In this document: positions 20,182 to 39,633 of the stretch, one piece after another
Layout: every line of letters starts with the position of its first letter
Position numbering within the stretch: position 1 is the first letter of the stretch
DNA from: an uncultured Bacteroidia bacterium
Lineage (GTDB): Bacteria > Bacteroidota > Bacteroidia > Bacteroidales > UBA932
Length of the DNA: 64,000 bases
Assembly: GCA_902778105.1 (NCBI GenBank)
Contig: CACYWN010000009.1
Location: 43,570-107,569, forward strand
Reading direction: 5' to 3'
Translations under genes and position numbers: made by a program
Notes under the pieces: generated by a model
Databases searched by the model: none
What the model saw: the letters and a program-made list of their open reading frames with translations, nothing else
Told to the model about the DNA's origin: nothing

Positions 20182-21084
20182 ATGAAACGGCTCCTGCGGA
20201 TGGTCCTTACCGGGATTCTGGTCCTGTCGGCACAGGTTTATTCCCGTGCGAAAACCGCCTGCCCCGAGGACGGGACTCCCTGGGAGGACCTCCTGGACCG
20301 CTACGAACTCATCTGCCGCCAATGTCTGGACCTTCAGAAGCGGAAAGACGCCGGGGAGGATATCCCTTCCCGGAAACTCCTTGTCCTAGTGGACGAATTG
20401 GAACAGCTCCGGGAAGAACTCCGGGGCGTAACGGACAAGATGCCGCCCGCCGCCCGGCGGCGATTCGAGGCCATCCGTCGGATGTACGCCTCCGGGAAGT
20501 ATTACAACACACGGCCGCTGGAGGCCGCTTCCATCCCCCTACCGGTAACTTGCTCCGCTCCGTCAACCCCACCGGCCATCCTTCCTCAGAGGCCCGGGAC
20601 GCCGGTCCCGGAAAACCGGTATCCGTCTTTCCTGGCCGTATCGGCATCCGCCGTCGCGCCGGAGTGGGCCTACGGCGCCATGGTTTCCCACTGGAGCCGG
20701 AAATGGGGGTGGTATACTGCCTTCCGCAGCAATTACTCATTTCACAGAACCGCCTATGACGCCCTCTCGGACGGTACGGCTGGAACGACACGTATCTGGG
20801 CCAGCGGCCGTTCCGCCACGGACCGATTGTTCGTTACCGCCGGACCGACCTTTCGGCTGAGGGAACACTGGGGAGTATTCGGCGGATTGGGCTACGGATT
20901 CCGACGGCTCTGCTGGGAAGACTCGGAAAGGAACTGGATGCGGATCGCCGATGCTTCCTCCTCCGGTCTAAGCGTCGAAGCCGGGATTTCCTGGATCCAC
21001 CCTCGCTTCACCCTTTCCGCCGGCTGGATATCCTTGCCGCTATCCTACCACGCGCTTGCGCTTTCCGTCGGATACGCATTCTGA
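20182..21084 (+). CDS. Outer-membrane beta-barrel protein, uncharacterised
   Basis: 300 residues. A signal peptide (MKRLLRMVLTGILVLSAQVY) is followed by a helical, charged part (LLVLVDELEQLREELRGVTD, about 60-100), a Pro-rich linker, and a C-terminal half of alternating hydrophobic strands (GAMVSHWSRKWGWYTAF, LFVTAGPTFRLREHWGVFGG, ALALSVGYAF) typical of an outer-membrane barrel ending in Phe. The last 40 bases overlap the 3' end of the GH89 gene on the other strand. Divergent from the Ser/Thr kinase, which may regulate it or sense the same stress; that link is inferred from position. Confidence 0.65.
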   Translation: MKRLLRMVLTGILVLSAQVYSRAKTACPEDGTPWEDLLDRYELICRQCLDLQKRKDAGEDIPSRKLLVLVDELEQLREELRGVTDKMPPAARRRFEAIRRMYASGKYYNTRPLEAASIPLPVTCSAPSTPPAILPQRPGTPVPENRYPSFLAVSASAVAPEWAYGAMVSHWSRKWGWYTAFRSNYSFHRTAYDALSDGTAGTTRIWASGRSATDRLFVTAGPTFRLREHWGVFGGLGYGFRRLCWEDSERNWMRIADASSSGLSVEAGISWIHPRFTLSAGWISLPLSYHALALSVGYAF

Positions 21085-23195
21085 ACCGGACGTATGACCT
21101 GCTCAAAGACCTCCCGGGCAGCATCAATAGGGTCGGAAAGGGGGTCTGCAGGATAGGGGTCCGTACGGAATGGCCAGGGCTCTTCGACGGCATACCAGTC
21201 GATGGCAGCGCCGGAACCGGGTTGCCGGGCTTCCGCGTCGAAGAAGGCCTTCCAACGGGACCGGTAGAAATCGCGCAACAGACCGTTCCATTCCTTGTAG
21301 GCGTAGTCGTGGAGTTTGCCTCCGTCGGCGCAGGCCCGGTCGCCCCAGGTGGTTATCTGCAGGCGGGCGTTTCGCTCAAAGAGCGTGCGGACATCCGGAT
21401 CTCCCGGAGCCACGGCCTCCGCAAGGGCCAGCGCATCGCCGATCCAGGAACCCAACATCCATTCCCGGCGGCTGCCGAGCAGATGGTCTTGAGCCAGAAG
21501 CGCTTGCATAAAGGCGGAAGTATCACGGGCATACAACAATTCCCGTCCCTTGTCCGCCACCGCCTGGCGTACGACGTCCACCAGGTCATATTCGAAATTG
21601 TCATTCCCCCGGTACCGTTCCGCCACGGACAGCATCATGGCCGCCGCCCGGCGGACATCCTGCACGTCATAATACTGTTCTGCCCGGGAACGGGCATACA
21701 CCTGGAAGACGTCCCAGGCGGGACGGGCGCAGAAAACCGATTCCACGGGCCCCTGCTGATTGTTGGGGCGCCGGGCGTCGTAAATGGACGAAGCCAGAAG
21801 TTCCCATGCATCCTCCAACGCCTTGTCCCTCGTGCCGTAACGGGCGAACACATAATCCCGGACCCAATCCTCCACCGTCAACGAATCCCTCCAGGGAAGT
21901 TCTGACATGAGTTCGTACATCACCGGATTTCCTTCGACGGCCTCCATCGTGAAGCCGACACCCCGTAGGTCTCCGTTTCCGCGGGCGGCCGCATAATTCT
22001 CCACCAGTTCTCCCATCCGGCCATGCAGGCCGACGCGACCGCCGAAGCTCTGCAGCAGGCAGAAAAGCCAGTCGTGGCCCTGGAACCCCTTTTCGTTGTA
22101 CCACAGGGACTCTTTCATCCCCCATTTCGGCCGGCATTCGGAGAAAAGGTCCAGCACCAGCACGTCGCCCTTGGGCAGGGCGGCGAGCATTTCGTCGCGG
22201 GGATTCTCGCTCCATGCCTGCAGGACCCACACCGCATCCGGCGAGGCCTTTTTCATCGCCTCCAGGACAGCCAGTCCGGCCTGGGCGAAATCTACGCCGC
22301 CCGCATTCTTGCTCTCGTGGAAAGGATCCATCGAATAGTACTCTGCCTTGCCGAACAACCGTTCCTGTTCTTCGTAGTACATCGCGGCGATTTCCACAAA
22401 GCGTGCATCGGTCGGACTCAGGATGGAAGGGCACTGGATGTTATTCCAAAGGCCCTGGTCCGGAGCATCCAGTCCCAGATGCTCCGACGCGTCGTGTGGC
22501 ACCATTCCCGAATAGCCGGGCAGGACCGGCCGCATGCCCCATTCCTTCATCCGCTGCAAGATCCGCTTCTGGAGCGCTTCCTGATGCGGGAACCATCCCT
22601 CCGGAAGTGGTCCACCCCATTGTTCGATGTTGTTCATCTCGAACCACGCCAGATAGGCCGGCCCCGCAATGATGTCTGCCGCCTCTTCCGGTGAATATCC
22701 CAACCGGAGAAGGAAATTCCGCCACACACACTCATCCCCGACGGCCGCCAGCGGTAAATCCACCCCGTGAAGGGCCATCCAGTCCAGTTCCCGCTCCCAC
22801 TGCGGCCAGTCCCAGAACGCCATCGAATAGGAATATGTACAGTAATTGAAGTCGTAGAAGTAATCCAGGTCAGCGGTATGCCGCTCCGGGGTTTCCGGCA
22901 TGGGAAGTACGTCCGGCAGCGAGGCTGTCAGGCATTCCCGCGAAAGCTGGATGCCGCAATAATACTTCAGATACCAGTTCAGGCCTACGGCCAGGTGGAC
23001 GTAGCTGTCGGCGCGGACGACGGGTTTTCCACCGTGGGCATCGATCTCGAAAAAGGCCTCCGATGCATCCACAAGCTCGGTTTCAATCCGTTTAGACGCA
23101 CCCGGGTCGATGCGTTCCAGCAGCGCCTCCACCGGAGAGGGGCCCTGGCTGCAGGCCATGACGGCCAGCGCCAGGAGAATCAATATCCTTTTCAT
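21045..23195 (-). CDS. GH89 alpha-N-acetylglucosaminidase (NAGLU family), lipoprotein
   Basis: 716 residues from the ATG at 23195 (MKRILILLALAVMAC, lipobox Cys). This start overlaps the previous stop as ATGA, which decides it over an upstream in-frame start. The GH89 N-terminal, catalytic and C-terminal domains are all present: ELDWMALHGVDLPLAAVG, GPAYLAWFEMNNIEQWGGPL and VLPGYSGMVPHDA align with human NAGLU segments by eye. The enzyme releases terminal alpha-linked GlcNAc, as in heparan sulfate or alpha-GlcNAc-capped mucin O-glycans. Last gene of the PUL operon, probably facing the periplasm or cell surface. Its 3' end overlaps the barrel gene convergently by 40 bases. Confidence 0.93.
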   Translation of the reverse strand: MKRILILLALAVMACSQGPSPVEALLERIDPGASKRIETELVDASEAFFEIDAHGGKPVVRADSYVHLAVGLNWYLKYYCGIQLSRECLTASLPDVLPMPETPERHTADLDYFYDFNYCTYSYSMAFWDWPQWERELDWMALHGVDLPLAAVGDECVWRNFLLRLGYSPEEAADIIAGPAYLAWFEMNNIEQWGGPLPEGWFPHQEALQKRILQRMKEWGMRPVLPGYSGMVPHDASEHLGLDAPDQGLWNNIQCPSILSPTDARFVEIAAMYYEEQERLFGKAEYYSMDPFHESKNAGGVDFAQAGLAVLEAMKKASPDAVWVLQAWSENPRDEMLAALPKGDVLVLDLFSECRPKWGMKESLWYNEKGFQGHDWLFCLLQSFGGRVGLHGRMGELVENYAAARGNGDLRGVGFTMEAVEGNPVMYELMSELPWRDSLTVEDWVRDYVFARYGTRDKALEDAWELLASSIYDARRPNNQQGPVESVFCARPAWDVFQVYARSRAEQYYDVQDVRRAAAMMLSVAERYRGNDNFEYDLVDVVRQAVADKGRELLYARDTSAFMQALLAQDHLLGSRREWMLGSWIGDALALAEAVAPGDPDVRTLFERNARLQITTWGDRACADGGKLHDYAYKEWNGLLRDFYRSRWKAFFDAEARQPGSGAAIDWYAVEEPWPFRTDPYPADPLSDPIDAAREVFEQVIRPVQNAYPTESASAW

Positions 23196-26100
23196 AACAG
23201 TCCTCCTGCGTATTCCCTGAATTGTTTCCAATCATAATACGGGCCTTCGCCCAATGCCGGAATGGAGGTCTCGCGCTCGTTCAGGAGCAGTTTCACCTGC
23301 ACCCCCTTACGCCCCCGGTAGAAGACCATCTGCAGGTTCGCCGCCATCGGCGAAACCTTCCAGCCCTGCCAGGCCTTCGCGTAGTTCCGGATATCCGCCT
23401 CCCGGGCGCTGCACTCCTCCACGCCCAGCAGCGACAGGAGGCGGATCAGGATGGAATCGTGTCCGAACCGGAGCGTTGCGACGGCGGGAGAAGAGCCGGA
23501 AACGGCCACATCGGCCTTTTCCAAAAAATCTTTCAGAAGCGGACGGACACTCTGGGGACCGACCGTTCCGGTCACGTTGACGTAGTACATCCGCGTATCC
23601 ACGCATTGAAGGGCACCATAGAGCTCGTCCGGCGTAAACAGATCGTCAAAACTCACCGCGGAGGAAATATCCTGCATGCCCATGGCGAGATAGTACAAAT
23701 CCGAGACGGCGGCCATCGGGTCCGGCACGCGGGACACATCCTTCAGCAAGGACCGGAGAAGGCGTTGCGGATGGACATGCGATGCCTTGAAATCCTCATA
23801 AACTGTTGTGCGCCAATGGGATGTCTCGCTGTCCAGCGAGTCGATGGCGGGATTCTTCGGGACCAGTATAGCCATCGTTTCCGCATCGCTCCGCCGGGTC
23901 ACCGATAGGCCCGCGCACGCATCCAAAAGGCTGTCACAGAAGGCATCCATGCTCGCCTGGCAACGGCCGGCGGTACTGGAAGACGCCTCGATGACGGCAC
24001 CGGGTGCAAAGAGGGATGGATACCGGCCCATCAATCTCCCTGCAATCTCCTTGTGCTGCCGGACGCCTTGGCCGGACAACTGCCCACCCTTGCCTTCCAC
24101 TTCGGCCCACAAGGTCTCCAGGCGGTGCAGGAAATCTTCGCCCAAGGGTGTCAGATTCCCTTTACCGGCCTGCTCCCGGTAGAATGCCAACGGGCGAGAA
24201 TACCGCTCGTCTTTGGTCAGATACCGCGACCCGTGACGGCCATAGTGACTGATATAGAACGGCTTATACCCCTTCGGCGCCGGTGTTTCGCAAACCGGGT
24301 CCCCCGGATAAGCATAGTAAGTTCCGCCCGCCCGGCCCGGATCCGCCTTGACGGCCAGGTAATCCGGGTCCAGCGATTCAAAGGACCAGTTCACTTCCAG
24401 CGGATTATTCTTCATGCGCCAGACAAGCGGCCGGGAAGGATCGTTCAAGACCCAGATTTCCGCACCTTCGTGGATATCCTGCGCATGCAGGAGCGTCCGG
24501 GAACAGGCAACTTCCAAGCTGTCGAGGAGACGGTATTCCGTTCCGTTGAACAAGGTGCGCCCTTTCTCCCGAAGCGCATAATAATGGGTCCGCGGAAGAA
24601 TCATGAACGTTTCCCCGGCATCCAGGGCCAACCGGCTGCCGTCTTCCGGCATCCGCAGGCTCAGTTTTCCGGCCGATTCCAGCGATTCCGGACCCATCGT
24701 ATAGCTGCCCCGCCAGCCCCGCAAGTTCCGCTCGATTCCCCATTCCACGCACAGGGAGTCGCCGCGGGGAACCACGTCGATGTCAAACCGCCGCCGCTGC
24801 CCGTGCAGGTAACAGGTCACCCGATAGGGTGGATTCTCCAGGAAACTTCCCCGGTCAATCAGATTGCCCGCTTCCAGCGGAGAGGCAAAAGGGACCATCG
24901 TCAACGTCAATGTTCCCCCCTTCATCAAGTCCTGATGGGTGAGGAACAGGGAGTCGAGCAGGATCCCATTCAAGCGGGCCTCTTGAATCCGGCAGCGTTC
25001 CGGAGACAGGCCTTTCGCCTTGACAATAAAGCGGTTCCCATTGGAGAGCCGGATTTCACTCCGCTTGAAAACCGGGGTATGGACCACATAGCGGTCAGTC
25101 CCGGCCACGGGGTAAAGACCCAACTGATGGAAGGCCAGCCAGGCGGACATCGCCCCTGAATCGTCGTTGCCGGGAAGCCCCAGGGGCGTGTCATTGAAAT
25201 GGTCCGCCATGATCTGCAGGACCTGCCGGGAGGTCTTTTCCGGCTTGCCGATCCAATGATAAAGGCAAGGCGTCAGGAAGGAAGGCTCGTTGGCCACGTT
25301 GTAATAGCCGCCCTCGAAAAAGCGGTCCAGACGCTCATCGAAAGCTTCCGCTCCTCCGCAAATCTCCACCAGGCCAGGAACATCCTGCGGTACGCTCAAG
25401 GAATACTCCCAACTCGTTCCCTCGTAGAAAAAGGAACTCCACCACTTCGTGTACCACGGGCCCTCCACCATCGTAGGCGTGTAGCGGTAGCGCGCATCTC
25501 CCCGGTCGGAATAGCCATAGGGAAGGTCGTCCAACCACGTTCCCGACGCATCCCGGGGCATCAGGAATCCGGTCACCCCGTCGTCGGTCACATCATTCCG
25601 CCAAAGGTTTTTCCAATAGCCGCCCATTTGGCGGTACTCTTCTGCAATATCTTCATAACCAAGCCCTTCCGCCACAGTGGCGATGGCGGCATCGCAGGCG
25701 GCGTATTCCACCGTCCGGTTGCCCGCCCGGGGAATTCCCCAAGGGATGTAACCCAGGCTTCGGTATTCATCCAAACCGCCGCGCCCTTCGGCCTCGTCGT
25801 CCACGGGCGGGACCTCGGCATCTTTCAACATAGCCTTCAACGCCTCCTCGTAATCAATGCCTTCCATCCCTTTGACAAAGGCATCGGCAATGACGATCTC
25901 GGCATTGGAACCGCCCTGGGTGCGTCCGTTGGAATTCCCGCTCCGGGCGTCAGGCAGGTAACCGTCGTGGCGGTAGATGGTCAGAAGCGCATTGACGATG
26001 TCCCGTTCCCGGGCCGGGTCCAGGATCGTAATCATCGGCAAGGACGTCCGATAGGTATCCCAAAGGGCATAATAGTCGTCATAATAGACTTCGTCGCCGG

Positions 26101-27022
26101 CAGGAGCCCACTCGCCGGTCCGGTCCACCGGCATAAGCATCGTATGGTACAAGGCGGTATAGAACATCCGCTTGTCGCGGGCGCTTCCGGACACTTTCAC
26201 GCGGTCCAGGAGTTCCTTCCACTGTTCGACGCATTGGACCTTGATCTCCTCGAAACTGCTCCTTTCCACCATTTCCAGATTCTCCCGGGCCTTTTCCGTA
26301 TCCAGGAAAGAGATGCCTACCCGCACCTCCACGTCGTCCCGGTCAAAGGCGACCCGCGCCACATGTCCGTCCAGGGCCGTCTTGCTGAAAGGGGCATCGC
26401 TCCGCAGGTGGAAGAAAACTGTATAAGGGGCTCCGTTGTTCCAGCCGCCCCGGATCGTCTGGCTGCCGGAAATGTTCCGGTCGTCCAGGATGCTGACTTG
26501 AGCGTCCACGAATTCCTGCGCTTCCCGCGCCCCAGGGGTCTCGCTCCGGCCTAGGAAAAAGTCCAAGTCCAGCCGGAGGCATTTCTCCCCGGACGCCGGG
26601 TAATGGAAACGATAGACAGATGCCTTCTGGGCAGCCGTTACCTCTACGCCGATGCCGCTTTTCTCAAAGGACGTCGCGTAATATCCCAGCGAAATGTCCT
26701 CGACCCGACGATAATCGTACGTCTCCGCCGGGTCGAACTCGGCAAAAGGCATCAGGAGGATGTTCCCGTACTTGGGACCGCCCCCCGTACCGCTGACGTG
26801 TACTTGGGAAAAACCGTCCACGCGCTCAGGCACCGGCAGCCAACCGCTGTTCGGCGCCGTCGTGCAGTCGGGAGAAGGCTTGACCATCCCGAACGGGCAG
26901 GATGGGCCGACAAACACCCTTCCCAAGCCCTCGGAACCGATTCGCGGGTCCACATAATCTGTTACCGACCGGGTACAGGAAACCGCGAAAAGCGCTGCTG
27001 CAAGAAGAAACCGGATTTTCAT
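23192..27022 (-). CDS. GH92 alpha-mannosidase fused to a histidine acid phosphatase
   Basis: 1276 residues from the ATG at 27022 (MKIRFLLAAALFAVSC, lipobox Cys); it overlaps the GH28 stop by one base (TGATG). Residues about 20-740 are GH92: VDPRIGSEGLGRVFVGPSCP at the start, GYLPDARSGNSNGRTQGGSN, EGTSWEYSLSVPQD with the Glu that serves as general acid in GH92, and GNDDSGAMSAW holding the base-assisting Asp residues. About 740-915 is a linking region. About 918-1276 is a histidine acid phosphatase (MINPP/phytase-like): YISHYGRHGSRY with the catalytic RHG, and FGHDS with the HD proton donor. Two enzymes on one lipoprotein suggest removal of phosphate and mannose from the same glycan. No stop or frameshift was seen at the join. 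Confidence 0.9.
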   Translation of the reverse strand: MKIRFLLAAALFAVSCTRSVTDYVDPRIGSEGLGRVFVGPSCPFGMVKPSPDCTTAPNSGWLPVPERVDGFSQVHVSGTGGGPKYGNILLMPFAEFDPAETYDYRRVEDISLGYYATSFEKSGIGVEVTAAQKASVYRFHYPASGEKCLRLDLDFFLGRSETPGAREAQEFVDAQVSILDDRNISGSQTIRGGWNNGAPYTVFFHLRSDAPFSKTALDGHVARVAFDRDDVEVRVGISFLDTEKARENLEMVERSSFEEIKVQCVEQWKELLDRVKVSGSARDKRMFYTALYHTMLMPVDRTGEWAPAGDEVYYDDYYALWDTYRTSLPMITILDPARERDIVNALLTIYRHDGYLPDARSGNSNGRTQGGSNAEIVIADAFVKGMEGIDYEEALKAMLKDAEVPPVDDEAEGRGGLDEYRSLGYIPWGIPRAGNRTVEYAACDAAIATVAEGLGYEDIAEEYRQMGGYWKNLWRNDVTDDGVTGFLMPRDASGTWLDDLPYGYSDRGDARYRYTPTMVEGPWYTKWWSSFFYEGTSWEYSLSVPQDVPGLVEICGGAEAFDERLDRFFEGGYYNVANEPSFLTPCLYHWIGKPEKTSRQVLQIMADHFNDTPLGLPGNDDSGAMSAWLAFHQLGLYPVAGTDRYVVHTPVFKRSEIRLSNGNRFIVKAKGLSPERCRIQEARLNGILLDSLFLTHQDLMKGGTLTLTMVPFASPLEAGNLIDRGSFLENPPYRVTCYLHGQRRRFDIDVVPRGDSLCVEWGIERNLRGWRGSYTMGPESLESAGKLSLRMPEDGSRLALDAGETFMILPRTHYYALREKGRTLFNGTEYRLLDSLEVACSRTLLHAQDIHEGAEIWVLNDPSRPLVWRMKNNPLEVNWSFESLDPDYLAVKADPGRAGGTYYAYPGDPVCETPAPKGYKPFYISHYGRHGSRYLTKDERYSRPLAFYREQAGKGNLTPLGEDFLHRLETLWAEVEGKGGQLSGQGVRQHKEIAGRLMGRYPSLFAPGAVIEASSSTAGRCQASMDAFCDSLLDACAGLSVTRRSDAETMAILVPKNPAIDSLDSETSHWRTTVYEDFKASHVHPQRLLRSLLKDVSRVPDPMAAVSDLYYLAMGMQDISSAVSFDDLFTPDELYGALQCVDTRMYYVNVTGTVGPQSVRPLLKDFLEKADVAVSGSSPAVATLRFGHDSILIRLLSLLGVEECSAREADIRNYAKAWQGWKVSPMAANLQMVFYRGRKGVQVKLLLNERETSIPALGEGPYYDWKQFREYAGGLL

Positions 27023-28326
27023 CAACGAACCTTTTTGCCGTCAATCCAGATGTCGGAAGCGACATCGAAACAATAGGGAACCTCGGTCGCAGGGATGAAA
27101 CCCTCACCCTTCCGCGGACGCAGGTCATAGACGGCGGAACGTTCCTCCGCGAGCCGGATGTCCACCCGGTCGAAACGGATTCCATGGACTTTTCCGGGCA
27201 CATCGCCGCCCACGAACACGCCATTGGCGGCATCACATTGGATATCCGTGAAATAGATGTCTGAGACCTCTCCGCAGGCACCCTCAGTAGCCCCCTCCGG
27301 GAATCGCCAGTTGGCGTCCTTGTGATTCACGGAGGCCCGCGGATAACTGGTCACGTAAATGGGCTCCGCCTTTCCCCACCAGACATCGCTCCAGAGGAGA
27401 CTTTCCACGTACATGTTCTGGAAGCGGACGTTTTCCACCGTCCCCTCGTCGCGGTTCTGGATGCCGATTCCCCGGTTCCCCGCCCGGATGATGCAGTTCT
27501 GGAACAGGACATTTCCGATCCGGTCCATGTTCTCCGAACCGATCTTGACGGCGCAGGAGCGGGAGGTCATCACGCAGTTCGTGACGACGACATCCTCGCA
27601 GGGGCCGTACCCGGCGAATTCCCGCCGGTTTTTCAGGCAGATGCAGTCGTCGCCGGACGTAATGTAACAGTCGGAGATCCGCACCTTCCGGCTGTGGTCG
27701 ATATCGATGCCGTCCCCGTTCCGGATCTTGAGGTTGTTCAGGAGGCTCACGCCGCTCACCAGGACGTCGGTACACCCCACCAGATGAACGGTCCAATAAG
27801 CCCCTTCCCGGATGGTTATGTCGCGGATAACCACATGGTTCACGCCCTTGAGGGTAAGCACATGGGGCCGCGGGTCGAAGTCGGTGACCGGCTTGAGGTC
27901 GTAGCTGTCCTCCAGCTCTTCGCCCATGAAGGCGACGCCGTTCCCGTCGATGGTTCCGGCCCCGTCGATGACGATGTCCTCCTCGTCTTCGGCCCAAAGC
28001 CACAGCATCCCCTCTCCCTCGTTCCTGCCGAATGCGCTCAGGTGGTAGATGCTTTCGTCGGGATGGGCCTTCAGGACAGCCCTCGGTTCCAGACGGTATT
28101 CCACCCCTCCCCGCAGACGCACCGGACCGGAAAGGAAGGTTTTCCCGGCCGGAAACACGACGGTTCCGCCGTTTTCGGCCGCCCGGTCCACCGCCTGCTG
28201 GATGGCAGCGGCGTCATCGGTGACGCCGTCGCCTTTCGCCCCGAACCGGGTGACGTCATAAACCGTGCTCCGGGAGCAGGAGAAGGCCGGCAAAAGGGCC
28301 AGGAGAATCATCAGATACTTTTTCAT
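27022..28326 (-). CDS. GH28 polygalacturonase-like glycoside hydrolase
   Basis: 434 residues from the ATG at 28326, chosen because it overlaps the GH92 stop as ATGA; a GTG two codons upstream is less likely. Lipobox Cys in MILLALLPAFSC. The pectate-lyase-like N-terminal segment (FGAKGDGVTDDAAAIQQAVD) and the GH28 catalytic motifs NGDGIDID (Asp) and SGDDCICLK (Asp-Asp) are present. The usual GHG motif is replaced by the SCAVKIGSE segment, as in exo-acting or divergent GH28 members. It would cleave alpha-linked galacturonic acid (or a related uronic acid or rhamnosyl linkage). Middle gene of the PUL. Confidence 0.9.
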   Translation of the reverse strand: MKKYLMILLALLPAFSCSRSTVYDVTRFGAKGDGVTDDAAAIQQAVDRAAENGGTVVFPAGKTFLSGPVRLRGGVEYRLEPRAVLKAHPDESIYHLSAFGRNEGEGMLWLWAEDEEDIVIDGAGTIDGNGVAFMGEELEDSYDLKPVTDFDPRPHVLTLKGVNHVVIRDITIREGAYWTVHLVGCTDVLVSGVSLLNNLKIRNGDGIDIDHSRKVRISDCYITSGDDCICLKNRREFAGYGPCEDVVVTNCVMTSRSCAVKIGSENMDRIGNVLFQNCIIRAGNRGIGIQNRDEGTVENVRFQNMYVESLLWSDVWWGKAEPIYVTSYPRASVNHKDANWRFPEGATEGACGEVSDIYFTDIQCDAANGVFVGGDVPGKVHGIRFDRVDIRLAEERSAVYDLRPRKGEGFIPATEVPYCFDVASDIWIDGKKVR

Positions 28327-30389
28327 AGGCACATTTCATAAGTCAAGGTTCCTCCGCGCAGGAGGGATTCGTGGCTGAGAAAAGGACGGCCGCGCCGATG
28401 GGCGGCGTCCCAGACAAGACGTCCGTTCAAGCGGATGGAACGCACATGGCAGTTTTGCTCCGACAGATTTTCCGCTACGATCCGGAGCGTCCTGCCGTTT
28501 TCCAGCTGGAGAACCGCCTCGGAGAATGCGGGAGCACCCAGGGCATATTCTCCGCTACCGGGACATACCGGGTAAAAGCCCAGCGAGGCAAAGATGTACC
28601 AGGCGCTCATCGCCCCGGCATCGTCATTGCCGCTCAGGCCACCGGGGGTATTGCGGTATTCCGTCCGCAGGATTTCCCGGACGGCGTCCTGCGTTTTCCA
28701 GGGCTGTCCGGTATAGTCATACAGCCAGGCAACCTGGTGGCAGGGCTCGTTGCCGTGCCAGTAACGATGCTCCGAGAACAGGGAATCGAGCCGCGCGACG
28801 AAGGTCTCTTCTCCGCCCATTTCCCGGATCAATCCCTTCACGTCATGAGGAACATACCAGGCATAATGCGAAGGGGTACCCTCCGTAATGAAGGAAGTCT
28901 TTTGCAGATAGTTATCCTCCCGCAGGAAGGTTCCATCGGCGTAACGCCCCTGGGGGTAGTGCGTTTCCGGATCGAAAACGTTCCGCCAGTTTCCGGCCCT
29001 GCGTTTCAAGGCCAGCCAATCCTTCAGATGTCCCCGGCGCAGGGCCATCCGGGACAGGCACCAGTCATCGTAGGCGTACTCCAGGGTGCGGGAAACCTGT
29101 TCCCGGGAATGGTAGGCATAGGGAACCTCGTCTTCCAGCGGGACATAGCCGTATTTCAAATACGAAACCAGCGCCCGCCGTCCCCGGCCGTCGATGTAGT
29201 CCGGCGACGTTTCCCCGGGCGAATCGAAGGCGTTGTGACGCATTGCCCGCCAGGCTTTCCGGACATCGAAGTTCCGGATTCCCTTCTGCCAGGCGTCCAC
29301 GATCATCGAAATGGCGTGGTCCCCGATCATCGCGCTGGTGTAACTGCCCCAGCACGGGAAAATGGGCAGCCACCCGCCCCGGTCGTACTTGCGGAGAAGG
29401 GCCTGGACCATCTCCCCGACCCGCTGCGGCTCCAGGATGGTCAGGAGCGGATGCAGGGCCCGGTAAGTGTCCCAGAGGGAATAATCGTCATAATCAGGTT
29501 CTTCCCCGACATCGCTGACCGTCCGGGGAAGGAGGGAAGCCCGCCAGAGAGAGCCGTAGAAATGGGTTTGGATCCCGGGATCGCCCCCCTCCGTTCCGAT
29601 GAGGGACAAGCGCTCCTCCCAGATCCTTTCCAGCGTATCCCGGACCGCATCGAAATCCCAACCGGGGATCTCGGCCTCCAGGTTCGCACGGGCGGATTCG
29701 ATGCTTCTGAAGGAAGATGCCGCCTTGACCAGGTGCGTTCCCCGGGTCCGGAAACGGAGGAGAACATAGTCGCCCGGCACCGACTCCACCACATCGAAGT
29801 CATCGTCGGTCTGGATGGTAAAATGCCCGCTGAAACCGGCTGGAAGGCCCTTTCCCTGATAAATCCGGTGAACGGGATTGCTCCCCGTCACTTCGCGTGA
29901 GGAGACCGTTAACGACCCCTCGCCTTCGTCGCTGAGAACCGTGATACGGAAAAACTCGCAGTCTGAAAAACGGAAGATGGCGCTGTGCGAACGCCCGGTC
30001 ATTTCCCAGCCGCCCAGGGCATAGTAGGAGGGCGTCGCCACCTCCTTCCGGTGGTCCAACGGCTGCGGGACATCCGCAGGAAGAAGGGCGAAGGAACCAT
30101 AATCCTGGGTGGCGCCGCCGGAGAGCCAATGGGAAGCGCGGAATCCCAGAAACTGTTCATCCTCATAATAGTACGGACTGACACCCTTCCATTCCGTCTG
30201 CCGGGTCTGGGGCGTCCAGAAGGTATGTCCGTGGGGTTCCGTCACGCAAGGGATGGTGTTCCCGTGCACCTCCCCGCCAGAACCGAAGATGCTGGCGGTG
30301 GGAGAATCGCTGGCCGCCGTACCGACACGGGTATCGATTCCGGAAACCGGAAAAACGGCAAGCAGTATGGCGGCGATCAGTCCGTGCAT
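28323..30389 (-). CDS. GH92 family alpha-mannosidase
   Basis: 688 residues from the ATG at 30389 (MHGLIAAILLAVFPVSG, signal peptide). An earlier in-frame ATG would place the start inside the terminator hairpin, so it is rejected. GH92 marks: EVHGNTIPCVTEPHGHTFW near the N-terminus, YDDYSLWDTYRALHPLLTI, FITEGTPSHYAWYVPHD with the catalytic Glu, NEPCHQVAWLYDY and GNDDAGAMSAWYIFASLGFY. It belongs to a different subgroup from the GH92 domain of the fusion protein, so the linkage attacked (alpha-1,2, -1,3, -1,6 or mannosyl-phosphate) probably differs. First enzyme gene after SusD. Confidence 0.93.
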   Translation of the reverse strand: MHGLIAAILLAVFPVSGIDTRVGTAASDSPTASIFGSGGEVHGNTIPCVTEPHGHTFWTPQTRQTEWKGVSPYYYEDEQFLGFRASHWLSGGATQDYGSFALLPADVPQPLDHRKEVATPSYYALGGWEMTGRSHSAIFRFSDCEFFRITVLSDEGEGSLTVSSREVTGSNPVHRIYQGKGLPAGFSGHFTIQTDDDFDVVESVPGDYVLLRFRTRGTHLVKAASSFRSIESARANLEAEIPGWDFDAVRDTLERIWEERLSLIGTEGGDPGIQTHFYGSLWRASLLPRTVSDVGEEPDYDDYSLWDTYRALHPLLTILEPQRVGEMVQALLRKYDRGGWLPIFPCWGSYTSAMIGDHAISMIVDAWQKGIRNFDVRKAWRAMRHNAFDSPGETSPDYIDGRGRRALVSYLKYGYVPLEDEVPYAYHSREQVSRTLEYAYDDWCLSRMALRRGHLKDWLALKRRAGNWRNVFDPETHYPQGRYADGTFLREDNYLQKTSFITEGTPSHYAWYVPHDVKGLIREMGGEETFVARLDSLFSEHRYWHGNEPCHQVAWLYDYTGQPWKTQDAVREILRTEYRNTPGGLSGNDDAGAMSAWYIFASLGFYPVCPGSGEYALGAPAFSEAVLQLENGRTLRIVAENLSEQNCHVRSIRLNGRLVWDAAHRRGRPFLSHESLLRGGTLTYEMCL

Positions 30390-30423
30390 AAAAAATGTGG
30401 GGCAGCTTGGAGGCTGTCCCACA
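30390..30423 (-). terminator. Intrinsic terminator/attenuator between susD and the PUL enzyme genes
   Basis: Minus-strand hairpin, 11-base stem TGTGGGACAGC / GCTGCCCCACA (one G-T wobble) with a 6-base loop at 30396-30423, followed by six T at 30390-30395 that run directly into the GH92 ATG at 30389. It starts 21 bases after the susD stop, so partial termination here would give more SusC/D than enzymes. Confidence 0.8.
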
Positions 30424-30444: not shown

Positions 30445-32100
30445 TTAATAACCCGGATTCTGCTTCCAGTTGGTGTTCTCGTTCAGGACGCCGGTCGGAA
30501 TCGGAAGGATGCGGCGGGTCTTGTCGAAGTTGGCCGTCGGGAAGCCCTTCTTGTGGAAGCCGTACTCGTTCTCGAAATGACCGAAACGGATCATGTCGTT
30601 GCGGCGCCAGTTCTCGTCGAAGAACTCCAGGCAGCGCTCGTTCTCGATGACGGCGAGGTCCACGCTGGACTTGGCGGGCGCCTTGGCATAGGCACGGACC
30701 TGGTTCACCAGCGAGGCGGCGGTGTCGCCGCCGGTGGCGGTTGCACCCCGGACGATGGCCTCGGCCTTCATCAGGAGGACATCGGCATAGCGGAAGATCG
30801 GGAGGTCGTTGGACTGGTTGCGGCCGTTCTTGTAGTCGTCCTGGATGACGAAGTACTTGACGCTCTTGTAGCCCTGGGACCAGCCGACGACATTCTTGCC
30901 CGTGTTCAGGTTCTCGTCGTCCGCGAGGAGCGTGATGGTGCTGGTCAGCACGATTTCCTCACCCTTGTACTGGTACGGCGTGGAAGTCTTCTCCCAGGTG
31001 ACGGGATCGTACATGTAGATCTTGCCGCGGATGACCTGCTCGGCGCGCAGGTCGCCCTCGGCCGCAGCGGCGTCGAAGCGGGCGGCCGCCTCGGGGGTCA
31101 GCGAGAAGTTGCCGCCGCAGGAAGCGCCGATGTCGGTACCGAAGTAGCCCGGACCGTCATTGCCGTCGTTACGGCCCTGGCGCCAGATGCGCGGACGGGC
31201 GTACTGGAAGCCCTGCTGGGTGAGGGCGTCGTACGGCATGGCATAGATGAAGTCCTTGATCTGCGGACCGTTGTTCGGATAGAACTTGGCACGGTACGGG
31301 TTCAGCGGAGTGCCGCCGTTACCCGACTGCTCACCACCGGCCAGGGAGAACTTGCCGGAAGCGATGATGTCGTCGCACAGGGCCACGAGGTCATTCAGTT
31401 TGGCATTGCCCGCAGAAGCCTCATACGCCGTCACGTCGGAAGCCGTGTACACGGCCCAGTTCAGGTAGATCTTCGCCAGCAGGGCCTCGGCCATCCACTT
31501 GGTGGGTTTGCCGTAGGTGGAGGCGTCCACATCCTCGGTCAGCAGCGGAATCACTTCGGTCAGCTCGCTTTCCAGCCACTCGGCCACCTGGGCGCGGGGC
31601 TTGCGCTCGACGACAGCACCTTCCTCCACGGGACCGTCGATGATCGGCACGTCCCCGTAGTTGTCCATCAGCAGGAACAGGTAGAAAGCCCGCATGGTAC
31701 GGGCATAGGCCGATGCCGGAGAGTCATAGCCGCCCAGGTCCAGGATGGCCTGGTTGGCCTTCGTGATACCGGCCGCGATCTCGCCGTACCAGCCCACGGA
31801 AGCGTCGTCCGGGGAATAGTTGTGCAGCGCGGAGTGCGCATAGGTACCGCCGTCGTAGTAGTCACCGTCGAAGGAGATGGCGGTCTGCTCGTCGGAGGAC
31901 AGGGAGGAGGACTCGCCGAAACGGCGGCCCAGGGCGCCGCGGAAGCAGTAGTACACATCGGCCATCTTGGCCTCAAGCGCTACGTCCGTGGTGGGATACT
32001 CGGTATAGAGGGACTTGATGTCCACGTCCAGGTTGGTGCAGCTGACGGCCAGAAGCGCAGCGGCAGCTGCCAGGATGATGATATTCTTTTTCATAGCCAT
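30445..32100 (-). CDS. SusD-family glycan-binding lipoprotein of the GH92/GH28/GH89 PUL
   Basis: 551 residues; MAMKKNIIILAAAAALLAVSC carries the lipobox Cys, and an ATG two codons later is also possible. SusD-type features: the N-terminal helical part (VALEAKMADVYYCFRGALGR), TPR core (AYARTMRAFYLFLLMDNYGD, PTKWMAEALLAKIYLNWAVY) and the C-terminal ERCLEFFDENWRRNDMIRFG with the closing LPIPTGVLNENTNWKQNPGY. Partner of the SusC gene 6 bases upstream. Binds the glycan at the cell surface and closes the SusC barrel. Confidence 0.95.
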   Translation of the reverse strand: MAMKKNIIILAAAAALLAVSCTNLDVDIKSLYTEYPTTDVALEAKMADVYYCFRGALGRRFGESSSLSSDEQTAISFDGDYYDGGTYAHSALHNYSPDDASVGWYGEIAAGITKANQAILDLGGYDSPASAYARTMRAFYLFLLMDNYGDVPIIDGPVEEGAVVERKPRAQVAEWLESELTEVIPLLTEDVDASTYGKPTKWMAEALLAKIYLNWAVYTASDVTAYEASAGNAKLNDLVALCDDIIASGKFSLAGGEQSGNGGTPLNPYRAKFYPNNGPQIKDFIYAMPYDALTQQGFQYARPRIWRQGRNDGNDGPGYFGTDIGASCGGNFSLTPEAAARFDAAAAEGDLRAEQVIRGKIYMYDPVTWEKTSTPYQYKGEEIVLTSTITLLADDENLNTGKNVVGWSQGYKSVKYFVIQDDYKNGRNQSNDLPIFRYADVLLMKAEAIVRGATATGGDTAASLVNQVRAYAKAPAKSSVDLAVIENERCLEFFDENWRRNDMIRFGHFENEYGFHKKGFPTANFDKTRRILPIPTGVLNENTNWKQNPGY

Positions 32101-32106
32101 GTCGGA

Positions 32107-35091
32107 TTAGAAGCTGAGTTTGACCCCGAGCATGAGGGTACGGGTGTGCGGATAGCGGTATTCACGCCAGTCGATGCCCGGGGAGATGCCGCCCAGGTCC
32201 ACTTCCGGATCGAGGCCCTTGTACTTGGAAATCACGAAAACATTGTTGCAGGTACCGTACACGGTGAGATTCTGGAGATAATCCTTGATCTTGCCGAAGT
32301 TGTAGGCAAGGGTGAGGGTGGACAGACGCAGGTAGTTCCCGCTCTCAAGGTAGCGGTCGGACGGAGCCTGGGCGAAGGCGGAATCGCTCCACCGCTGCTC
32401 GGTCGCGACCTCCCTGAGGACGTTCTTTTCCGCGGCGTTCGCGATGGCGCTGTACTGGGCGCGCGGGGCATTGAAGATCTTGCCGCCGAAATTCCCCTGG
32501 AAGAAAGCCGTCAGGGAAAGGTTCCGGTACGCGAGCGTATTGTTCCAGCCCAGGGTCAGGGCCGGCTGGGCATAGCCCGTGACGGCGCGGTCCTTGTCCT
32601 GCGGATCGGTCGTGGTGGTGGACAGGCGTTCGCCGGTCTCGGCGTCATGCTCCCAGTACTGGGAACGGCCGTCGGCGGTATAGCCGGCCCACTCCCAGGT
32701 GTAGAAGGTTCCCAGCGGGTAGCCTTCCATGATGCGCTGCACGTTCGTGGTGGCGAAACCGCCGATGTTCGGGTTGCCCTGGTCGATGTAGTCGACGGAA
32801 TAGGCGCCCTTGGAGATGGCCTTCACCACATTCTTGTTGTGGGAGAGGTTGAGGATCGTGTTCCAGGAGAAGTCCCGGGTCTGGACCGGAACGGCATTGA
32901 TGGACAACTCGATACCCTTGTTGGACATGTCGCCCACATTGGCGGTCATCCAGCCGTAGGGATAGATGTTCGTGGAGACGGCGTAGTCCCAGATGAGGTC
33001 CTTGGTCTCCTTGTCATACACCTCGATGCTACCGCCCAGACGGCCCTTCAGGAGGGAGAAGTCCAGGCCGACGTTCAGCATGGAGGTGGACTCCCACTTG
33101 AGGTCGGGGTTCGCGTTGCGGGTGGCGGCGAGGGTGCGCTTGAGGGTGGTGACCCCGGACTCCGGGTCGGTGTACTCGAACCAGCCGCTGGCGCCGTAGG
33201 TGGCGATGGCGGTGAAGGCGTCGAATCCCAGGGAGTTACCGCTCACGCCGTAGCCGGCGCGGAGTTTGAGCTGCTCGAACGCACCGCCCTTCATGAAGTC
33301 TTCCTCGGCGATGTTCCAGGCGGCGGACACCGACGGGAACGTAGCCCAGCGGTTGTTGGCGCCGAAGGCGGAGGAACCGTCACGACGGAGCGTGGCCTGG
33401 ATGCTGTAGCGGCCCTTGTAGGAATAAGAAGCTCGGCCGTAGAAGGAAATCATGCGGAGGGTGCTCACGGTACCGCTGGTGACATCCGTCATCCCGTCGA
33501 TCTGGGAAGCGTAGGAGAGCTGGTACCACTTCAAGTCATCATTGTAGAAGTCCTTGACGGTGACGCCGAAGCCGTCTCCCTGGTTGGATTCCTCCCAGGA
33601 GTAACCGGCCATGAGGCCCACCTTGTGGTCGTTCGCGAAGGTCTTGTCGTAGTTCAGGTACGTCTCGATGGACTTGCGGTCGCCGAAATAGGTGTTGCGG
33701 TGGGCATGCCCGTTGTCGGCCGGATAGGCGTAAGACTGCGTGCTGTGGTAGTCGCTGTACACCCGCTGGTTGTTCATCAGGGAGGCGTTGGTGTTCCACA
33801 CCAGGCCGTCGGTGATGGTAAGGGCGGCCTTGCCGATGAACTGCATCATCTTGAAGATGGTCTCGGAGGAATCCTCATAGATGAGGGAAACCGGATTGTA
33901 GTTCTGGGAGATGCCGTACTGGTACCAGCTGCCGTCCGCATTCTTCACGGGAGAAGTCGGGGCATAGTAGTACATGGCATCATACACGGAGGCGCCGTCC
34001 CTGGAAGCCCACACGCCCCGGTTCCGGCCCTGGCTGGCGTTGGCGCTCAGGCTCAGGGTCAGGCGGTCCTTGAGGACGGTGGCCTGGACGAAGGAGCGGG
34101 CGTTGATCCGCTGCATGCCGGACCCGACGATGACGCCCTCCCGGTCGATGTAGTTGATGGACGCGCTGTAGCGGGACTTCTGGTTCGCCCCGCTCACGGA
34201 CACGTTGTGGTTCTGGGAGACGCCGGTCCGCTGGACCTCGGAGGCCCAGTTGGTGTCGGCGTGCTGGTCGTTCACCAGGGAGAAGCCGTTGGAGGAGGCG
34301 TAGTCGCGGAGTTCGTCGGCCGACATCATCTCCAGATTCTTGGAGATCTTGTCGAAGGCGACATAGCCGTTGTAATTCACGTTCACACGGCCTTCCTTGC
34401 CCTTCTTGGTGGTGACGATGATGACGCCGTTCGCAGCCTTGGAGCCGTAGATGGCGGTGGCGGAAGCGTCACGAAGGACGTCGATGGACTCGATGTCATC
34501 GGTGGCGACCAGGGAGAGGTCCACGCCCGGGATTCCGTCGACCACATAGTAAGGCGACATGGCTCCGGAACGGAGGGTGGAAGCACCGCGGAGGGTAATG
34601 GAAGGCGTACCGTTCGGGTCACCGGTCTGGGTGACCACCAGGCCCGCCACCTTGCCCTGCAGGAGGGAGGCCGGGTCGGTGTAGACACCGAGGTTCAGGT
34701 CCTCGCTCTTGACGGTGGTGATGGAAGAGGTGACGTCCTTGCGGGTCGTGCTGCCGTAACCGATCACCACGACATCGTCCAGGATGTTCTGGTCCTCCTG
34801 GAGGGTGATGTCCAGGGTACCGGCCTTGGCCGTCACTTCCTTGCTTTCAAAACCGATGAAGGAAACAACGAGCGTGGCTCCTTCCCGGACGGTCAGCTGG
34901 TACTTACCGTCCAGGTCGGTCGTTGTCCCGTTGGTCGTAGCCTTCTCGACTACACCTGCGCCGGCGAGGGCTTCCCCGTTGTTGTCATACACGGTTCCGC
35001 TCATCCGCACACTTTGCGCAAATGCAGTGGAAAGCGTCAGCAGGGCACAGACAGCCACTGCAAACACCTTCATTGCAGATCTGTTTTTCAT
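32107..35091 (-). CDS. SusC-family TonB-linked outer-membrane transporter of the PUL
   Basis: 994 residues. MKNRSAMKVFAVAVCALLTLSTAFAQ-type signal (an internal Met at residue 7 is an alternative start). Carboxypeptidase-regulatory-like domain about 28-105 (VRMSGTVYDNNGEALAGAGV), plug about 112-220 (LLQGKVAGLVVTQTGDPNGT, YYVVDGIPGVDLS), then a barrel ending MLGVKLSF. Imports the oligosaccharide captured by SusD. First gene of the operon SusC-SusD-GH92-GH28-GH92/phosphatase-GH89, transcribed from the box at 35171. No sigma/anti-sigma or hybrid two-component regulator lies beside it in this window. Confidence 0.95.
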   Translation of the reverse strand: MKNRSAMKVFAVAVCALLTLSTAFAQSVRMSGTVYDNNGEALAGAGVVEKATTNGTTTDLDGKYQLTVREGATLVVSFIGFESKEVTAKAGTLDITLQEDQNILDDVVVIGYGSTTRKDVTSSITTVKSEDLNLGVYTDPASLLQGKVAGLVVTQTGDPNGTPSITLRGASTLRSGAMSPYYVVDGIPGVDLSLVATDDIESIDVLRDASATAIYGSKAANGVIIVTTKKGKEGRVNVNYNGYVAFDKISKNLEMMSADELRDYASSNGFSLVNDQHADTNWASEVQRTGVSQNHNVSVSGANQKSRYSASINYIDREGVIVGSGMQRINARSFVQATVLKDRLTLSLSANASQGRNRGVWASRDGASVYDAMYYYAPTSPVKNADGSWYQYGISQNYNPVSLIYEDSSETIFKMMQFIGKAALTITDGLVWNTNASLMNNQRVYSDYHSTQSYAYPADNGHAHRNTYFGDRKSIETYLNYDKTFANDHKVGLMAGYSWEESNQGDGFGVTVKDFYNDDLKWYQLSYASQIDGMTDVTSGTVSTLRMISFYGRASYSYKGRYSIQATLRRDGSSAFGANNRWATFPSVSAAWNIAEEDFMKGGAFEQLKLRAGYGVSGNSLGFDAFTAIATYGASGWFEYTDPESGVTTLKRTLAATRNANPDLKWESTSMLNVGLDFSLLKGRLGGSIEVYDKETKDLIWDYAVSTNIYPYGWMTANVGDMSNKGIELSINAVPVQTRDFSWNTILNLSHNKNVVKAISKGAYSVDYIDQGNPNIGGFATTNVQRIMEGYPLGTFYTWEWAGYTADGRSQYWEHDAETGERLSTTTTDPQDKDRAVTGYAQPALTLGWNNTLAYRNLSLTAFFQGNFGGKIFNAPRAQYSAIANAAEKNVLREVATEQRWSDSAFAQAPSDRYLESGNYLRLSTLTLAYNFGKIKDYLQNLTVYGTCNNVFVISKYKGLDPEVDLGGISPGIDWREYRYPHTRTLMLGVKLSF

Positions 35092-35198: not shown

Positions 35199-36308
35199 CT
35201 AAATTTTCAAGAAAATCTTTTGTCTGTACAGGAAGTACAGCAACAGCCAGCACACGGTCATGTATCCGGCAGCGAGCAGCACGGGGCCCCAGCCGCCCGG
35301 GAGCAGGGCAGCCACCCCGCCCAGGAAATACTCCGACACCGCACGGAAAGGGATGATCTCCTGAAGCAGATAGATGGTGATGGAATTCAGGCCGATCACG
35401 CGGAAAGGGAAGGTCCATTTCCCATGCCCCATCACTTCGACGATGTAATAGACCAGCGCATAGACGGCGATGGAAACGCCGCCGACCACCAGCACGAACG
35501 AACTGGTCCAGAGCTTCTTGTTCAAGGGAAGGACGAGGCTCCAAAGGAGACCGGCAGCCAGGAGGACGGCGGCCGCGCCGAGCATCCACAGGGCCTTTTT
35601 ATTCCCATTTATCTTTTCCTCCGGCACGCGGATGAACTCCCCGGTAAACATCCCGAGCATCGCGGTCACGGTGGCCGGAATCACGCCCAGCAGACCCTCC
35701 GGATCGAAGTTCCCGTTATGGAGCCGTCCGGGAAGGAGGTGGCGGTCGATCCATCCGTGCAGGCAGCCGTCCTGGGTCAACGGTCCCGCCCCGGCCGGCG
35801 CGTCGGGGGCTCCCACCAGCGTGATGAGCACGCCGTAACCCACCAGGAGAACGGCGGCGAGGACAATGCGGGGGACGGTCTTGCAATGGACATACAGCAG
35901 GGCCGCAAACATCCAGGCCAGGCCGATCCGGCCCAGGACGCTCGCATACCGCTGCGGGAACTGCAAGGCGAAGAATCCATTATAGACGATGCCCAGCAGG
36001 ATGAGCAGCAGGCAGCGGACGAGGATCTTCCGGTGGATCTGCCAGGTAGTCCGGCCCTTTTCCCGCTGCTTCGCATAGGAAAACGGGAAGGAAAGGCCGG
36101 CGATGAACAGGAACAGCGGAAAGACCATGTCCATGATGGTGAGGCCGTTCCAGTCGGCGTGGTGCATCTGCAGGAGGAGCCAGCAATGGTCCCCGCCGGG
36201 GAACAGTTCACAGGTCCGCGCAATCAGCGGGGCCAGTCCCATGATGAGCAGCATGTCGAGCCCCCGGAGGGTGTCGATGGAGAGCAGGCGTTTGTTGTTT
36301 TCCATCAT
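35199..36308 (-). CDS. nagX: NagX/HGSNAT-like (DUF5009) membrane acetyltransferase
   Basis: 369 residues with about ten membrane helices. N-terminal SIDTLRGLDMLLIMG and the segment HHADWNGLTIMDMVFPLFLF are typical of the DUF5009 family, which includes human heparan-alpha-glucosaminide N-acetyltransferase; the His in HHADWNG corresponds to the proposed acetyl-carrying residue. It may move an acetyl group from cytoplasmic acetyl-CoA to glucosamine in the periplasm. Its ATG overlaps the aroC stop (ATGA), so it is read from the aro operon, yet it lies next to the PUL containing NAGLU, the enzyme that follows HGSNAT in animals. Transport function has also been suggested for NagX proteins. Confidence 0.8.
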   Translation of the reverse strand: MMENNKRLLSIDTLRGLDMLLIMGLAPLIARTCELFPGGDHCWLLLQMHHADWNGLTIMDMVFPLFLFIAGLSFPFSYAKQREKGRTTWQIHRKILVRCLLLILLGIVYNGFFALQFPQRYASVLGRIGLAWMFAALLYVHCKTVPRIVLAAVLLVGYGVLITLVGAPDAPAGAGPLTQDGCLHGWIDRHLLPGRLHNGNFDPEGLLGVIPATVTAMLGMFTGEFIRVPEEKINGNKKALWMLGAAAVLLAAGLLWSLVLPLNKKLWTSSFVLVVGGVSIAVYALVYYIVEVMGHGKWTFPFRVIGLNSITIYLLQEIIPFRAVSEYFLGGVAALLPGGWGPVLLAAGYMTVCWLLLYFLYRQKIFLKI

Positions 36309-39549: not shown

Positions 39550-39557
39550 ATTTCATT

Positions 39558-39620
39558 GGCGGTTAACCGCCTGTTTATCAATCGTTTCAACAGTGTTCCC
39601 CTGTGCATTTCATCACAGGG
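39558..39620 (-). promoter_or_regulatory. Two small hairpins between aroB and aroDA
   Basis: The 84-base gap contains a perfect palindrome GGCGGTTAACCGCC (39558-39571) and a second stem CCCTGTG (39599-39605) / CACAGGG (39614-39620). There is no T-tract and no clear TAnnTTTG box, so they may be operator or RNA-processing sites within the aro operon. Confidence 0.35.
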
Positions 39621-39633
39621 CACAACCCCTTAT

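Follow-up and report, generated by a model that had tools for sequence, protein, structure and literature searches.

A GH92–histidine phosphatase fusion lipoprotein in a Sus-type locus that may act on glycosyl-inositol-phosphate headgroups

A 64,000-nucleotide stretch of contig CACYWN010000009.1 from an uncultured Bacteroidia bacterium (hereafter, the window) encodes on its reverse strand a lipoprotein of 1276 residues (23192..27022, −), in which a glycoside hydrolase family 92 (GH92) module is followed by a conserved middle domain and a histidine phosphatase (HP). The fusion is a real single protein, and its gene sits in a closely spaced operon that also holds a SusC/SusD pair. We tentatively favor, at close to even confidence, a model in which this polysaccharide utilization locus (PUL) dismantles a glycosyl-inositol-phosphate headgroup whose most likely source is the glycosyl inositol phosphorylceramides (GIPCs) of plants, with the fusion as one of its enzymes. 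A fuller version of the model is put forward with more reserve. It would make the locus a bacterial pathway for plant GIPC headgroups, the first by our literature searches, consisting of a Sus-type PUL whose GH28 would be a uronosyl-inositol hydrolase, an activity new to that family, together with an end-trimming glycosidase–phosphatase fusion and a new lipid-binding-like domain family.

Domain architecture and integrity of the fusion

The open reading frame (23192-27025, −) is listed at 1277 residues from a TTG codon; a start at the next codon, ATG 27022, shortens the protein to 1276 residues, with an N terminus that reads by eye as a lipoprotein signal peptide (...LFAVSC). An earlier, sequence-only reading of this DNA had described one 1276-residue lipoprotein carrying both a mannosidase and a phosphatase, and the domain assignments bear this out. 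In the numbering of the 1277-residue frame, the N-terminal beta-sandwich of GH92 (26372..26956, −; PF17678, Glyco_hydro_92N) spans residues 24–218 at 147.8 bits against a cutoff of 34.5, and the catalytic domain (24893..26293, −; PF07971, Glyco_hydro_92) spans residues 245–711 at 461.9 bits against 24.6. The C-terminal region (residues 889–1277; 23195..24361, −) was assigned from PDB matches, motifs, and Pfam to a MINPP-like branch-2 histidine phosphatase, with PF00328 (His_Phos_2) matching residues 930–1249 at 48.3 bits against 23.6. The catalytic motifs are in place, namely the Glu of EGTSWEY (motif from residue 535), GNDD, RHGSRY, and FGHD. In the GH92 tree the catalytic domain falls in a clade with support 99/99, here called GH92a. 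Between the two enzymes lies a conserved domain of about 150 residues that the earlier reading had passed over (about residues 740–885; 24371..24808, −).

A second metagenome-assembled genome (MAG), from goat reticulum (locus L016, JAFSJK010000011.1), holds the same full-length frame, with 1277 residues aligned at 99.5% identity. The two genes differ at 29 nucleotides, of which 23 are synonymous and 6 nonsynonymous (dN/dS 0.08), and the phosphatase part contains a single difference, too alike to judge selection on the phosphatase alone. The sequence-only reading had allowed that the fusion might be given up if relatives encoded the two enzymes separately and reads showed a missed stop codon at the junction. 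Separate genes do occur in relatives (genomes G739 and G293); a missed stop or misassembly is very unlikely, because the second MAG keeps the whole frame open.

Searches covered 295 genomes of the same order at E ≤ 1e-100 and, in a draw that overlaps with this one, 395 of the same class at E ≤ 1e-150; a full-length match came from the window's own genome alone, and the other matches end at GH92 or after the middle domain. A scan of genome contigs with the fusion returned six loci, with the full fusion in one (L016). The search for further two-domain proteins that the earlier reading had proposed yielded L016 and, in reverse order, a phosphatase–GH92 protein in G698. Genomes of the same genus or family (G008, G126, and G224) gave neither a GH92a-type match nor a middle-domain match, and G750 and G688 likewise gave none to the middle domain.

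The middle domain has no Pfam match up to E = 1. Its structure was predicted with high confidence (pLDDT 87.3, pTM 0.82, from 8 sequences) and consists mostly of beta strands. Foldseek gave no match at E ≤ 0.001; the top matches, at E 0.008 to 0.2, included lipocalin C8gamma, GID4, VioE, LprG, LolA/LolB, RseB, and fatty-acid-binding proteins, several of them lipid-binding, with query TM values of 0.17–0.45 among the 50 matches listed. This modeled likeness is suggestive of an amphiphilic substrate, a hint rather than evidence. A search of 393 genomes found the domain in 10, five with strong matches (E ≤ 5.5e-20) and five with weak ones (E 1.6e-7 to 1.4e-5). In several relatives it is a separate small secreted protein. 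The weak relatives (L044–L048) are four proteins of 194–211 residues with signal peptides, judged by eye, and one stretch within a 338-residue protein (L045), all in unrelated contexts; these distant relatives form an undescribed family.

Gene neighborhood of the fusion and its relatives

The genes around the fusion run in one direction. Upstream are a NagX/HGSNAT-like transmembrane glucosamine N-acetyltransferase (35199..36308, −), 107 bp before susC; a SusC-like TonB-dependent transporter (32107..35091, −); a SusD-like lipoprotein (30445..32100, −), both assigned by Pfam; a second GH92 (28323..30389, −; Pfam and tree, start by eye) of another clade, GH92b; and a GH28-family protein (27022..28326, −; Pfam and tree, start by eye). 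Downstream follows a GH89 alpha-N-acetylglucosaminidase (21045..23195, −; Pfam, likely ATG by eye). The fusion ATG overlaps the GH28 stop by 1 base (TGATG), and the fusion stop overlaps the likely GH89 ATG by 4 bases (ATGA). The acetyltransferase scores just above the cutoff of PF07786 and reaches 286.6 bits with the NCBIfam NagX model, below its cutoff of 480. With SusC and SusD adjacent and glycosidases on the same strand, the window holds a Sus-type PUL. It shares with the Sus-type PULs of Bacteroidota the SusC/SusD pair, exo-acting enzymes, and tight gene overlaps, and it would differ from them in its predicted substrate, a glycolipid headgroup instead of a polysaccharide.

Two smaller features of this region were recorded. 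A hairpin at 30390-30423, seen by eye between susD and the second GH92 (10 of 11 pairs, then six T) and not listed by a simple scan, is likely a terminator or attenuator. In 35199-40683, the NagX gene overlaps aroC, which is preceded on the same strand by aroB and a 3-dehydroquinase/EPSP-synthase fusion; the acetyltransferase gene is the end of this shikimate gene cluster.

Eleven loci around GH92a genes were compared with 37 loci around other GH92 genes. The controls all come from ten genomes, which also supply nine of the 11 GH92a loci; the other two are from Phocaeicola plebeius DSM 17135 (L017) and from an uncultured member of Bacteroides (L018). The GH92a loci of G739 and G698 were recruited by the middle-domain search, all others by similarity to the fusion. 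Excluded from both groups were L012 (the GH92a of G164, on a 3-kb contig), L020 (a fragment), L016 (from the window's own species), L026 and L027 (which do not fall in the GH92a clade), and L019 and L021 (unannotated). One full-length GH92 (G165:C4:44295-45668), five fragments, and the GH92s inside GH92a loci are not among the controls. A few control stretches share sequence or contain more than one GH92, and several loci are short contig ends.

The gene association around GH92a exceeds chance. Read with the caution that the Fisher p values are too optimistic, the loci being partly related (G358/G393; L017/L018) and in part overlapping or short, and that the profile models were partly built from GH92a loci and hence favor them, GH89 is present in 6 of the 11 GH92a loci and in none of the 37 others (p 3.8e-5), with G358 scored as lacking a GH89 that falls just outside the stretch used. 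HGSNAT is found in 5 of 11 against 0 of 37 (p 2.7e-4), GH28 of any type in 5 of 11 against 2 of 37 (p 0.004), and the middle domain in 9 of 11 against 0 of 37 (p 3e-8; two of these loci were found through it). At least one of three phosphoesterases, namely HP, GDPD, or metallophosphoesterase (MPE), occurs in 7 of 11 against 2 of 37 (p 1.3e-4); taken singly, the counts are 3 and 1 for HP (p 0.03), 4 and 1 for MPE (p 0.007), and 1 and 0 for GDPD (p 0.23). The presence pattern was unchanged after one round of model iteration. An outside model, Pfam NAGLU, agrees with the GH89–GH92a association: it detected 10 GH89 genes, spread over 8 of the ten genomes, and 7 of the 10 have a GH92a no more than 13 kb away.

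The complete gene set is found unfused in G739 (L042), where SusC, SusD, GH89, GH92a, a separate 185-residue middle-domain protein, an HGSNAT-like acetyltransferase, GH28, and a separate phosphatase follow one another in one direction, with a second GH92 just downstream on the opposite strand. G293 (L022) carries GH89, a GH92 joined to the middle domain, HGSNAT, GH28, and a separate phosphatase, with no SusC/SusD matched in the stretch examined, and the G165 locus has GH92a, the middle domain, GH89, HGSNAT, SusC, SusD, and GH28, with no phosphoesterase matched. In G257 the set is SusC, SusD, HGSNAT, GH89, GH92a, a GH28 of another type, and a second HGSNAT. G358 and G393, which belong to a different family of the window's class, have GH89, SusC, SusD, a further GH92, GH92a, and a middle-domain protein, with a calcineurin-like phosphoesterase in place of the histidine phosphatase. 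The P. plebeius locus contains SusC/SusD, a calcineurin-like phosphoesterase, a GDPD–GH92a fusion, and then a middle-domain protein of 184 residues. The GH89 and HGSNAT-like genes are adjacent in G165, G257, and G698, and they belong to a single locus in the window, in G293, and in G739; in G698 (L108) the pair has no GH92a nearby. GH89 of the window's type is not specific on its own, matching (E ≤ 1e-60) in 34 of the 295 genomes, and L098–L103, around six of the closest matches, gave no match to GH92a/b, HGSNAT, GH28, or HP. Separately, G358 (L105, 1808-3736) encodes between GH89 and SusC a 642-residue protein in which a glucosamine-6-phosphate isomerase-type domain is fused to a PIG-L de-N-acetylase.

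Candidate substrates of the locus

GH89 enzymes remove alpha-GlcNAc, and the lysosomal pair of NAGLU (GH89) and HGSNAT acts on heparan GlcN(a1-4)GlcA. NagX has been proposed (PMC9007349) to acetylate periplasmic glucosamine with cytoplasmic acetyl-CoA, like HGSNAT on heparan. The histidine of the H-x-x-W-N-G motif, presumably catalytic, is conserved in each of the six NagX/HGSNAT-like copies aligned. GH89 and the acetyltransferase, paired in the window and in relatives' loci as in the lysosome, suit an alpha-GlcN at the non-reducing end. Unlike the lysosomal system, the window also has a mannosidase, GH28, and phosphatase. Heparan itself was rejected as substrate: no sulfatase, heparin lyase (polysaccharide lyase), or GH88 was found among the ten window proteins scanned.

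The best solved match of the GH92 is 6f8z, one of a series (6f8z–6f92) that we take to be structures of BT3130 and BT3965. PMC5930347 describes these as Bacteroides GH92 alpha-mannosidases and gives an acid/base catalytic role for the family; the window GH92 shares with them the fold, both Pfam domains, the general acid Glu, and the GNDD region, and differs in being fused to a phosphatase. The +1 partner of GH92a likely differs from that of other GH92s, because the His of HGNEP is missing in all eight GH92a sequences listed and present in six of the eight others listed. For the phosphatase, the closest PDB entry is 7r5y, a "histidine acid phosphatase" (E 7.2e-59), followed by MINPPs that include 4fdt (1.8e-43), presumably the B. 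thetaiotaomicron enzyme. With the MINPP/branch-2 enzymes it has in common the RHG and HD motifs and near full-length similarity; the difference is its position C-terminal to a glycosidase. By path length in the tree it is nearest to the operon phosphatases of G739 and G293, without strong support.

The type of this GH28 was matched at E ≤ 1e-60 in 5 of the 295 genomes, with the fifth match, in G064, only 36% identical, and the window's GH28 forms a clade with those of G293, G739, G165, and G110 (support 98/99). As a separate observation, the G110 copy (L096, 466-13203, contig C25) lacks an evident signal peptide by eye and adjoins IolG in a myo-inositol catabolism operon. In that operon IolB, IolC, IolD, MMSDH, and IolG score above their NCBIfam cutoffs and IolE below, and there are two SSS transporters.

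The published GIPC head (PMC8099651, PMC9113257) is GlcNAc(a1-4)GlcA(a1-2)inositol-1-O-phosphorylceramide, with variants that carry GlcN or have Man in place of GlcNAc; it thus contains the same GlcNAc(a1-4)GlcA disaccharide as the substrate of the lysosomal pair (PMC8099651). From the domains and gene neighborhood described above, we infer a sequence of steps. SusC/SusD would, as members of their families, import the headgroup or the lipid. NagX/HGSNAT would acetylate a terminal alpha-GlcN and GH89 would take off the alpha-GlcNAc, or GH92a would take off alpha-Man where the head carries Man instead. The fused MINPP-like phosphatase would strip the inositol phosphate after the lipid is cut off, and the GlcA-inositol left after removal of Man and phosphate would be split by GH28. 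The middle domain might hold the lipid end or merely space the two enzymes. The fusion would place mannose-end and phosphate-end trimming at 1:1 on one anchored polypeptide. The sequence-only reading had also suggested an enzyme that frees inositol phosphates linked to mannose, which comes close: MINPPs are among the solved relatives of the phosphatase, and the recurring neighbors point to a glycosyl-inositol phosphate.

Several observations weigh against a GIPC pathway. GH89, GH92, GH28, and HP occur together in 3 of the 11 loci (the window, G739, and G293) and are partly missing in the other eight; 4 of the 11 show no phosphoesterase; the P. plebeius locus and L018 are without GH89, HGSNAT, and GH28 in the stretch examined; and L025 has only SusD of the set and L043 only the middle domain. 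The lipid-fold matches of the middle domain are weak (best E 0.008, TM 0.30), and no ceramide-cleaving enzyme was seen among the ten scanned proteins. The GH28s of G257 and G358 belong to another type, the link between GH28 and iol genes was found in one genome (G110) with no second case among 198 relatives of it, and we know of no GH28 acting on a uronosyl-inositol (alpha-GlcA-inositol), which would be new for the family. Canonical IolD scores above its cutoff in just 2 of 12 genomes (G294 and G110), not in the window's own (84% complete), which leaves no obvious route for released inositol there.

An unlikely alternative, which we nevertheless rank second, is the glycan of glycosylphosphatidylinositol (GPI) anchors from plants, protozoa, or fungi (Man3-GlcN-inositol-phosphate), from which the GH92s would cut mannose, NagX and GH89 would handle GlcN, and the phosphatase would take the ethanolamine-side or inositol phosphate. 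The same enzymes suit GlcN, Man, and inositol phosphate, the window holds two GH92s, and GH92 alpha-1,4-mannosidases linked to GPI cores are described in PMC5930347. GIPC is placed ahead because GPI fits everything except the uronic acid step: it has no uronic acid to account for GH28. Its core also has three mannose linkages, yet the same-strand gene runs of G739, G293, and G165 contain a single GH92 each.

The phosphatase could instead be a general phytase or phosphomonoesterase that scavenges phosphate, its fusion to GH92 only coupling expression to a plant-glycan PUL without a common substrate. Three further HP genes elsewhere in the window's genome and an HP fused to GH2 at a different G739 locus fit such a role, which we still consider improbable: HP–GH92 fusions arose twice independently, each in a SusC/SusD locus, and orthologous GH92a loci contain phosphoesterases that belong to three Pfam families (HP, MPE, and once GDPD). 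Another phosphorylated glycan with alpha-GlcN and mannose, such as a bacterial capsule, a mycobacterial-type inositol mannoside, or a Bacteroidota inositol lipid, has a slim chance. Bacteroidetes make inositol lipids and place some inositol in capsule, according to PMC9246714; none of these glycans is known to bring GlcN, Man, uronic acid, and inositol phosphate together in a single head the way GIPC does.

Not supported, and given the slightest probability, is the substrate that the sequence-only reading had put first, phosphomannosyl glycans of yeast mannan or mannose-6-phosphate N-glycans that would be dephosphorylated and trimmed. In CcMan5, a GH92 that cleaves Man-P-Man, the general acid Glu is replaced, and a mannan or N-glycan PUL is expected to carry GH76, GH99, GH125, GH38, PNGase, or GH18/GH85. 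The pairing of GH92 with phosphomannose, known from CcMan5 (PMC5930347), offers a precedent for a GH92 acting next to phosphate. However, GH92a keeps the acid Glu (EGTSWEY) and is not of the CcMan5 type, none of the listed mannan and N-glycan enzymes, endo-acting ones included, was found among the ten scanned proteins, the phosphatase is closest to 7r5y and MINPP enzymes, and GH89, HGSNAT/NagX, and the inositol-operon-type GH28 are left unexplained.

GIPCs are described in PMC8099651 as the most abundant plant sphingolipids, so that rumen and gut microbes would meet them daily. Literature on bacterial GIPC breakdown was not found among the matches listed, judged by title and start of abstract, nor was any combining GH89, GH92, GH28, and "polysaccharide utilization"; GH92 and "histidine phosphatase" occur together in one paper, on Aspergillus. 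Should the GIPC model prove right, the locus would supply a defined set of enzymes that can be put to the test and used in plant biology to alter GIPC heads, and it would show where dietary inositol, phosphate, and GlcN end up. On the weaker reading alone, what stands is a repeated mannosidase–phosphoesterase fusion around one kind of PUL.

Other phosphoesterase fusions

The G698 phosphatase–GH92 protein (1115 residues) lies beside SusC/SusD and is divergent from them. Its GH92 belongs with the window's second GH92 in GH92b (support 100/100), not GH92a, and since the GH92s are of different clades the two fusions are of independent origin. In P. plebeius a GDPD phosphodiesterase is fused to the front of the orthologous GH92a. 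The same functions are joined in four arrangements: GH92a–HP in the window, HP–GH92b in G698, GDPD–GH92a in P. plebeius, and HP–GDPD in the window's genome. The last is a 672-residue protein (L052, 8695-10713, contig C21) that unites domains for diester and monoester cleavage. A third glycosidase–phosphatase fusion, the GH2–histidine phosphatase of G739 (1303 residues; L050, 6469-10380, contig C31), stands in its different locus beside GH115, a GH28 of the other type, and a SASA esterase.

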